NCBI GenBank assembly: GCA_902762435.1
Contig: CACWOH010000006.1
Location: forward strand, 19,482 to 83,481
Reading direction: 5' to 3'
Source: an uncultured Bacteroidia bacterium
GTDB taxonomy: Bacteria > Bacteroidota > Bacteroidia > Bacteroidales > UBA932
DNA length: 64,000 nucleotides
Shown here: piece by piece, positions 44,337 to 45,734 of the stretch
Position numbering within the stretch: the first letter of the stretch is position 1
Layout of the letters: the number at the start of each line of letters is the position of its first letter
Translations under genes and position numbers: made by a program
The notes under the pieces: model-generated
The model's input: the letters and a program-made list of their open reading frames with translations, nothing else
The model's database searches: none
What the model was told of the DNA's origin: nothing

Positions 44337-45734
44337 ATGAAACGGAGTTTCGCGGATATTTTGGCCGGCCTGGACGGCGAGCGGGCGCGGAAAGTTGCGC
44401 GCAAGCTGCCCGAGTGGGCCGCCGCCGGCGCCGAAATCCCCTCCGCCCTCTCCCTCGAGCAGTGTTCCTCCGCCGCCACAGCATTGTATAAAGCCGGACA
44501 GGCGGCTGCCGCTGCAAAACTTCGCTTCGCTCATCCCACCGCTGCGCTACGCTTGCGGTCCCCCCGTTCACGAGCCACGGGCGGCTACGGTTTTGCCACG
44601 GCACCGCCTGCTCCGGCTTTGACTATAATCGATCTGACCTGCGGGTTGGGGGTGGACAGCTGGGCGTTCAGCCGGGTGGCGGAGCGGGTGGTGAGTTACG
44701 AGCGGGATGCCGTGCTGGCGGAGGCGGCGAAGCGGAATTTCGTCCGGCTGGGCGCGGACAACATCGAAGTCCGCTGCGAGACCGTGACCCCGGAAACCGA
44801 TCTGCCCGAAGCGGACCTCATCTACGCCGACCCGGCCCGCCGCAACGCCGCCGGTCGCAAGGTCTTCCTGCTGGAAGACTGCACCCCGGACATCCTCACC
44901 CTGCTGCCGATGATGCTGGAGAAGGCTCCGGCGGTGCTGCTCAAACTGTCGCCGATGGCCGACCTGACGATGCTCGCCAGGCGCCTCGGCCCCGCCTTAC
45001 AGGAGATTCACGTCGTCGAAAGTGACGGCGAAGTAAAAGAGTTGCTCTGCCTGCTGACCCGCGCCGCCGCCCCCGCCGAACCGGAAATCATTCTCGCGCA
45101 ATTGTCCGGGCAGGCGGCTGCCGCTGCAAAACTTCGCTTCGCTCATCCCACCGCTGCGCTTCGCTTGCGGTCCCCCCGTTCACGAGCCACGGGCGGCTAC
45201 GGTTTTGCAGCGGCACCGCCTGCCCGGACAGACCATATACGTTTCCGGATAGCGGAAGAGCAGGAGGCGGAGGCCGTTTTCGCGGCGGGCGTGCAGCCGG
45301 GCGATACGCTCCTGGAGCCCTGCCCCGCCCTGCTGAAGGCAGGCGCCTTCAACCTGCCCTGCGCCCGCTGGGGTCTCCGTAAACTCGCACCTTCCACCCA
45401 TCTGTACCTCGCTCCCGCCCCGCCGGGGGCAAATACCCCCGGTTCCGCCCCCGACAACCCGGATTTTCCTTTCCCGGGGGCCGATTCATGCCCCAATGCC
45501 CCTGGCAACCCCTGGTTCAAGGCCTGGCGCGTGCTGGAGGTGCTGCCTTTCGGCGCGGCGGCATTCAAACACGTCAAACAGCGCTGGCCCCGGGCCGAAG
45601 TCACGGCCCGCAACCTGCCGCTGGGCAGCGCCGAGCTGCAAAAAAGAATGGGCGTCACCCCGGGAGGAGACACCCATATCTTCGCCTGCAGGCTGGCGGA
45701 CGGATCCGCCGTCCTGCTCGTTACGGAACGATGA
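44337..45734 (+). CDS. Class I SAM methyltransferase with THUMP-like domain, interrupted by two in-frame palindromic elements
   Basis: This 465-residue protein has a helical N-terminal region (1-50, ending E-Q-C-S-S-x-A-T-A-L-Y-K-A), a SAM-binding Rossmann core beginning I-I-D-L-T-C-G-L-G-V-D near residue 98, and an active-site-like D-P-A-R-R. The C-terminal THUMP-like domain has W-G-L-R-K-L-A-P-S-T-H and F-K-H-V. Two near-identical stretches of about 40 residues (about 52-94 and 256-298, both starting G-Q-A-A-A-A-A-K-L-R-F-A-H-P) are encoded by palindromic DNA elements. One lies just before the SAM-binding motif, the other in a loop before the THUMP-like part. A third odd loop (about 358-393) interrupts the THUMP-like domain. 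Relatives I recall lack these. The 3' end overlaps the convergent M64 gene by 14 bases. Confidence 0.8.
   Translation: MKRSFADILAGLDGERARKVARKLPEWAAAGAEIPSALSLEQCSSAATALYKAGQAAAAAKLRFAHPTAALRLRSPRSRATGGYGFATAPPAPALTIIDLTCGLGVDSWAFSRVAERVVSYERDAVLAEAAKRNFVRLGADNIEVRCETVTPETDLPEADLIYADPARRNAAGRKVFLLEDCTPDILTLLPMMLEKAPAVLLKLSPMADLTMLARRLGPALQEIHVVESDGEVKELLCLLTRAAAPAEPEIILAQLSGQAAAAAKLRFAHPTAALRLRSPRSRATGGYGFAAAPPARTDHIRFRIAEEQEAEAVFAAGVQPGDTLLEPCPALLKAGAFNLPCARWGLRKLAPSTHLYLAPAPPGANTPGSAPDNPDFPFPGADSCPNAPGNPWFKAWRVLEVLPFGAAAFKHVKQRWPRAEVTARNLPLGSAELQKRMGVTPGGDTHIFACRLADGSAVLLVTER
44492..44618 (+). repeat. Palindromic coding-sequence element, copy 1
   Basis: An inverted repeat of about 29 bases bounds the element: the left arm (44492-44520) pairs with the right arm (44590-44618) apart from a few differences. 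The 113-base core (44499-44611) differs from copy 2 at only about three positions. Frame is codon-aligned and open. It encodes an Ala/Arg-rich insert. Confidence 0.8.
45103..45230 (+). repeat. Palindromic coding-sequence element, copy 2
   Basis: The left arm (45103-45132) and right arm (45202-45230) are inverted complements, differing only by one extra C in the left arm. The arms begin TGTCCGGGCAGGCGG. The core is read in the same frame as copy 1 relative to its own sequence (both begin at a CAG codon). Confidence 0.85.
45423..45442 (+). repeat. GC hairpin inside a third methyltransferase insert
   Basis: CCGGGGG, loop CAAATA, CCCCCGG lies in the Pro/Gly/Asn-rich stretch (about 45410-45515) that interrupts the THUMP-like domain between T-H-L-Y-L and W-R-V-L-E-V. 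It may be a decayed element of another family. Confidence 0.4.

Follow-up and report, generated by a model that had tools for sequence, protein, structure and literature searches.

A dispersed palindromic element read in frame in genes of gut Bacteroidales, with hairpin arms that are probably evened out by template switching

A methyltransferase gene that holds nearly the same palindrome twice, and is read through both times, raises the question of what the inserted sequence is, how it comes to lie within genes and what keeps its arms complementary. The gene (44337–45734, + strand) is located in the window, the whole stretch of 64,000 nucleotides that was analysed, and encodes a class I SAM methyltransferase of the PG_1098 type with 465 residues, as assigned from the open reading frame, the Pfam domains PG_1098_Fer and Thump_like and the homologue 3LL7. 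The preliminary description of two palindromic elements in the same frame of one ORF was confirmed, and the two insertions lie in separate loops. Copy 1 (44490–44620, + strand) spans residues about 52–94, directly before the SAM motif DLTCGLGVDS, and copy 2 (45103–45230, + strand) spans residues about 256–298, before the PG_1098 ferredoxin-like domain. In copy 1 the left arm (44490–44520, + strand) pairs with the right arm (44590–44620, + strand) at 74% complementarity in an ungapped comparison, and the conserved core of about 80–85 nt, common to other copies, extends approximately from 44517 to 44596 (+ strand). The start of this copy, previously placed at 44492, becomes 44490 if all A-T and G-C pairs of the stem are counted. 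In copy 2 the left arm (45103–45132, + strand) and the right arm (45202–45230, + strand) are 100% complementary in two blocks, 45103–45117 with 45216–45230 and 45119–45132 with 45202–45215, around a core with approximate ends at 45129 and 45208 (+ strand). Compared as a direct repeat (44494–44611 and 45106–45223), the copies are 97% identical; the near-identity described earlier stands, with four differences counted over 118 nt in place of about three in a core of 113 bases. Both copies fold strongly on the + strand (folding energy z = -5.4 and -8.4, none of 200 shuffles being as good), a 20-base core pattern occurs in the window only in these two copies with 0 expected by chance, and a profile of 45 copies recovers both at E < 1e-28, the next best match having E = 0.46.

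In agreement with the insertions claimed in the preliminary description, homologues without the two stretches exist, namely the P. gingivalis protein (PDB 3LL7) and several close relatives. The spacing from 'YKS' to the SAM motif is about seven residues in 3LL7 versus about 42 here, and loop 1 is short and without the element in G331, G275, G249, G283 and G015; G288 and G177, with no methyltransferase ORF, were left out of this comparison. In the AlphaFold2 model of the methyltransferase the pLDDT falls below 50 at residues 66–91 and 259–297, inside both inserts, and also outside them at residues 1–11, 170–183 and 363–390. The third hypervariable loop of the protein (residues about 363–390; 45423–45506, + strand) carries another repeat, GCCCCTGGCAAC, of a different element, which is also found in L025 and L027, and in several relatives this loop carries repeated PGxxTxxxAPG-like peptide units. 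The recent movement that had been proposed from the similarity of copies 1 and 2 was not borne out: both loops also bear palindromes in three relatives, G325, G132 and G224, and the near-identity of the two cores in the window may therefore reflect gene conversion.

The core, when searched genome-wide, is present 30–40 times in the own genome. At least 30 blastn matches were obtained (40 of 63 candidates scored), a figure to which copy 2 contributes an extra hit on its arm and in which one copy, divided between contig ends, counts as two halves, and at least 40 profile matches (150 of 1341 candidates scored), which is probably a lower bound. The profile was built from an alignment of 45 copies, 18 from the own genome and 27 from other genomes, with partial or doubtful copies omitted (L002, L004, L005, L006, L009–L011, L015, L019, L021, L028, L030, L074 and L079). 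Several contigs of the own genome (G000 C1/C35, C17 and C18) end inside the element; palindromes thus seem to break the assembly, and the copy numbers of this genome may be lower bounds for that reason. At the genus level matches occur in 128 of 200 genomes (about four candidates scored per genome), and the core pattern is found in at least 118 stretches of public MAGs; among the 80 MAG matches listed, 79 have titles with Bacteroidales, Bacteroidaceae or Bacteroidia, many of them naming a gut site, and one is Candidatus Cryptobacteroides intestinavium. Of 295 genomes of the order, 8 have a profile match, and the fold around one match each identifies four true carriers besides the own genome: G524, from another genus of the same family, and G576, G606 and G426, from other families. 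The matches in G656, G595 and G586 (E from 2e-4 to 0.008) had no element-like fold around them and were dropped as chance. The core pattern was not found in exact form in viral contigs. The copies represent a non-autonomous element family of Bacteroidales from gut and rumen: palindromes of about 100–150 bp, with a core of ~85 nt and a stem of roughly 20–35 bp, which are also found outside recognisable genes.

Sixteen recognisable genes of the own genome carry 17 insertions between them, a count that cannot show broken genes because each copy was found through an open frame spanning the element and a gene-breaking copy would count as intergenic. The host genes, with short names that are partly our assumption, are those of the methyltransferase (two insertions), RecG, a YgiQ-like radical SAM protein, an HI0933-like flavoprotein, DsbD, GcvP2, QueH, a pseudouridine synthase, PmbA, TldD, UvrD/PcrA, RsmF, RibF, an RNB-domain ribonuclease (RNase R-like), a SpoU methylase and a tyrosine recombinase (XerC/D-like); the pseudouridine synthase gene is split over two contigs within the element. 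An unbiased test of the frame is provided by the comparison between species. It covered eight of the host genes, each in as many as eight relatives, and all 66 orthologous sites, own genome included, keep both anchors in the same frame with no stop. The YgiQ loop is likewise in frame without a stop in 56 of 56 genomes, 27 of the loops being longer than 45 nt and 29 measuring 12–36 nt; a YgiQ match was present in 156 genomes, 41 of them with two matches and one of these (G085) also full-length, and the loops read are those of the best 30 matches, nearly all contiguous, of 17 split ones and of the eight-gene comparison. All 148 orthologous segments, from nine genes and ten sites, are multiples of three and stop-free, and 63 of them contain a strong palindrome of this element or of other families. 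The methyltransferase part of this count (35 of the 148 segments and 13 of the 63 palindromic ones) is biased, since its ORFs were picked by motif; for the other segments the anchors were sought in all six frames. The element profile matches 54 of the 92 loci searched, each of which holds such a site, so some of the palindromes belong to other families. Reading frame and strand differ by gene, the element being read in sense in the methyltransferase, in another frame in RecG and in antisense in YgiQ. Compared with dinucleotide shuffles, the element shows no consistent excess of stop-free frames, hence there is no sign that it is shaped for openness in many frames. Together, the dispersed copies and their frames support the earlier proposal of a palindromic element inserted in frame in genes in the manner of the Rickettsia palindromic elements (RPEs).

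Between species the same loops are found empty, with this core, with other palindromes or with nested ones; RecG, for example, is without the element in G201, G132 and G331. In the methyltransferase of G121, loop 1 holds a left arm alone and loop 2 only a right-arm-like piece, and GcvP2 of G089 has a left-arm-like remnant; judged from their sequence, the single-arm pieces of G121 and G089 are presumably scars of in-frame deletions. Comparison of occupied with empty sites revealed no target duplication or exact boundary, the flanks being too diverged. In YgiQ of G180 (L352:204-536) two palindromes stand in tandem, and between them the host codons PIL recur in nearly the same form, a possible target duplication. 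In five further species (L354, L358, L361, L363 and L364) this YgiQ loop holds another repeat, CCCCCTGC[AG]CCCCC..., the peptides of which are alike (TIPLHPQGTGG-like).

What the 45 copies have in common is only the core of about 85 nt; every locus has arms of its own. Left arms score on average 17.5 when paired with the right arm of their own copy and 6.3 when paired with those of other copies. In 38 of 45 copies the best score is obtained within the copy, with own scores lowered in one subfamily by arm windows that were cut short; the highest cross-copy score, 30, comes from two orthologous copies. In many of the 45 copies the left arm has an additional unpaired base, located about equally far from the core. 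Evidence that the two arms change in concert comes from seven orthologous YgiQ palindromes (three turned to match), in which 97.1% of the cells in 20 stem pairs are paired and both sides have changed in 11 of the 20 pairs, with hardly any G.U steps. None of 500 shuffles reaches this, and at most 55% of the cells remain paired when the partner is shifted by one to three columns. The cells comprise 15 double changes, one one-sided change and four unpaired ones, and in G180 four adjacent stem pairs differ together. Further pair types in the set are unexceptional, being reached by 41 of 500 shuffles, and the species compared are few and related to each other, so the counts are not independent. When 26 ortholog pairs are pooled, some of them not of the element, so that the pool does not represent true orthologous elements alone, 142 double changes (paired ones only) stand against 121 expected (all double changes, under independence); since these counts lie near the independent expectation, the clean signal of concerted change rests on the YgiQ set. 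The YgiQ core is also inverted between species, its orientation in G000, G132 and G224 being opposite to that in G104, G082 and G089 at the same site. Arms that change together and a spacer that inverts, as in template-switch dynamics, are seen at this one site, YgiQ.

The arms further include codons of the host. The left outer arm in the methyltransferase coincides with the conserved YKA, the outer AAAGCC of the copy 1 arm being the conserved host codons Lys-Ala, and in RecG of G104 and G325 GACCAGAATGTG stands before CACATTCTGGTC to give a hairpin with the conserved PHILV codons. In the outer stem of YgiQ, loop codons pair with the codons to the right of the loop (PILL in G000). Ten of ten positions are complementary in G000, G089 and G219, which have three different sequences, and nine of ten in G331 and G082; the best empty genome reaches seven, and G132 three. 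When all 56 YgiQ genomes are included, the difference becomes modest (mean 5.2 versus 3.7 of 10, p = 0.019). A longest-match check of these arms proved too crude to add to the folds. Arms that include host codons would fit a stem that grew outward as host sequence was copied in inverted form.

The observations are probably best accounted for by a dispersed element inserted in frame, the hairpin of which is evened out and extended by template switching after insertion. The element lies between genes and in frame in protein loops, and within genes it would be translated in the cell as a mostly disordered insert of about 30–45 residues, while insertions that break a gene would be removed by selection, as the unbroken frames suggest. 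The inserted hairpin would then act as its own template: a polymerase switching between the arms would make them alike, would sometimes extend them outward with host codons copied inverted and would sometimes flip the core. The compensatory double changes, the host-codon arms and the inverted cores all point to such switching, and template switching between inverted-repeat arms is described as homogenising the arms and inverting the spacers (PMC8604942) and as creating and maintaining stems (PMC8794818). By itself, template switching leaves the arrival of the core at new loci unexplained, and a Y1/RAYT-type enzyme acting in trans would be the first candidate for this transfer.

An enzyme of this kind might alternatively account for the arms as well, if the element is of the REP/REPIN type and mobilised in trans by a RAYT (TnpA-REP, Y1 HUH), with compensatory arms that reflect hairpin recognition; enzyme selection for the hairpin could likewise yield compensatory changes. 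We consider this possible and, on the whole, doubtful. A RAYT mobiliser had been suggested before, and the part of the suggestion that held is the co-occurrence with Y1 genes: at least two Y1_Tnp matches (E <= 1e-3) are found in 14 of 15 element-bearing genomes and none in four of five element-free ones (Fisher p = 0.005), in a set of 20 genomes of one genus with shared ancestry that were selected for completeness and contrast. The long stem-loop form and the additional base at a similar place in many left arms are also in line with it. The element itself, however, is absent within the fetched flank of about 1.5 kb from all 31 RAYT-like loci, which belong to the 39 listed Y1 matches, and the RAYT-like Y1 gene L061:800-2230 (G000:C10), with an HVHF motif, has a different palindromic repeat, CGTCCC...GGGACGATA, on both flanks. 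The tags of such repeats are not conserved either, the conserved place being occupied by GTAG in 10 of 45 and by CGTC in 9 of 45 copies, and G013, with 11 matches to the element, lacks any Y1 match. Among the Y1 matches, several fall below the Pfam cut-off, with 13 of the 20 genomes above it; the own genome has three weak Y1_Tnp matches, one above the cut-off and all three with the H-x-H motif.

It is also conceivable, and in our judgement unlikely, that the element spreads with no transposase at all, a stalled nascent strand switching to an ectopic copy of the hairpin and back and thereby copying the local flank. If true, such spread would explain the shared core, the private, locally derived arms with inverted host codons and the inversion of the core.

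A structured RNA, such as a ribozyme, a regulatory hairpin or a signal for translational bypass, kept for its RNA fold would be consistent with the strong folds and the compensatory changes, but is highly improbable. All gene segments examined are in frame without stops, which makes bypass unneeded, and the copies stand in both orientations to genes, even at one site. Arm mismatches over 63 palindromes (32 G.U versus 48 A.C) give no RNA bias and hence no sign of selection on the gene-strand RNA, and a search of 11 loci against Rfam 15 returned no match to the element and only an SRP RNA next door, so the RNA-hairpin function entertained earlier is not favoured. Even less credible is a protein-level adaptation in which hypervariable loops are selected for their peptide; the same loops are indeed hit repeatedly in different species, but different frames and both strands give unrelated peptides, the methyltransferase inserts are predicted at low confidence and other copies are outside recognisable genes. 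An assembly artefact of metagenome bins, which the contigs ending inside elements might suggest, can practically be dismissed given that 128 of 200 separately assembled genomes carry the element, that G121 has 31 matches in only about five contigs, and that the copies are in frame at every site examined and orthologous between species.

Comparative data are scarce on how coding palindromes such as RPEs originate, keep their symmetry and come to be tolerated. Here, many related genomes present the same loops empty, with one core, with another core, with nested copies or with single-arm remnants, so that gain, loss, inversion and arm conversion become datable site by site. The insertions in RecG, RNase R, UvrD/PcrA or the XerC/D-like enzyme show loop insertion that these enzymes bear, and the element offers a natural test of how in-gene palindromes survive.

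Among the papers listed by searches of the open PMC library for palindromic or in-frame repeats with Rickettsia, Bacteroidales, Bacteroidetes or Cryptobacteroides, subscription journals being outside this scope, no title or abstract describes the element. Copies of one RPE family are alike over the whole palindrome, arms included, whereas the arms studied here mostly have their own partner as the best one (38 of 45). RPEs are described as palindromes of about 150 bp with many copies, nearly half of which are in frame in unrelated genes (PMC10969869), and the present element resembles them in being palindromic, present in many copies and in frame in unrelated protein genes. It differs, in a comparison by description and not by sequence, in its occurrence in another phylum, in a core that alone is common while the arms are private per locus and change together, and in a core that lies in opposite orientations between species at one orthologous site. 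GTAG/CGTC-tagged REPs are reported to have intragenic copies, among them double insertions in Opitutus terrae uvrA and copies in R. conorii (PMC3733652); from that account both are palindromic repeats within genes, repair genes too, sometimes more than one per gene, but REPs measure 20–40 bp and have a conserved tag, whereas the element measures 100–150 bp and conserves neither tag. With MITEs, ERIC and intragenic RU elements, as these are outlined in PMC10969869, it has in common that it is short, non-autonomous, dispersed and sometimes in frame; no terminal sequence in common was seen among its copies, and neither a target duplication, the flanks of empty sites being too diverged to reveal one, nor a parent transposase was found. 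The long inverted repeats in coding sequences of Nematomorpha mitochondria also have arms that encode conserved residues, but their abstract describes no dispersed repeat with a shared core (PMC6649704). Inverted repeats shaped by template switching are similar in arm homogenisation and spacer inversion, the known cases being, in the relevant passages of those papers, small local events and not a dispersed element (PMC8604942, PMC8794818). From its sequence, the element thus appears to work like RPEs and intragenic REPs, yet without conserved arms and tags it is set apart from both and is probably not a member of either.
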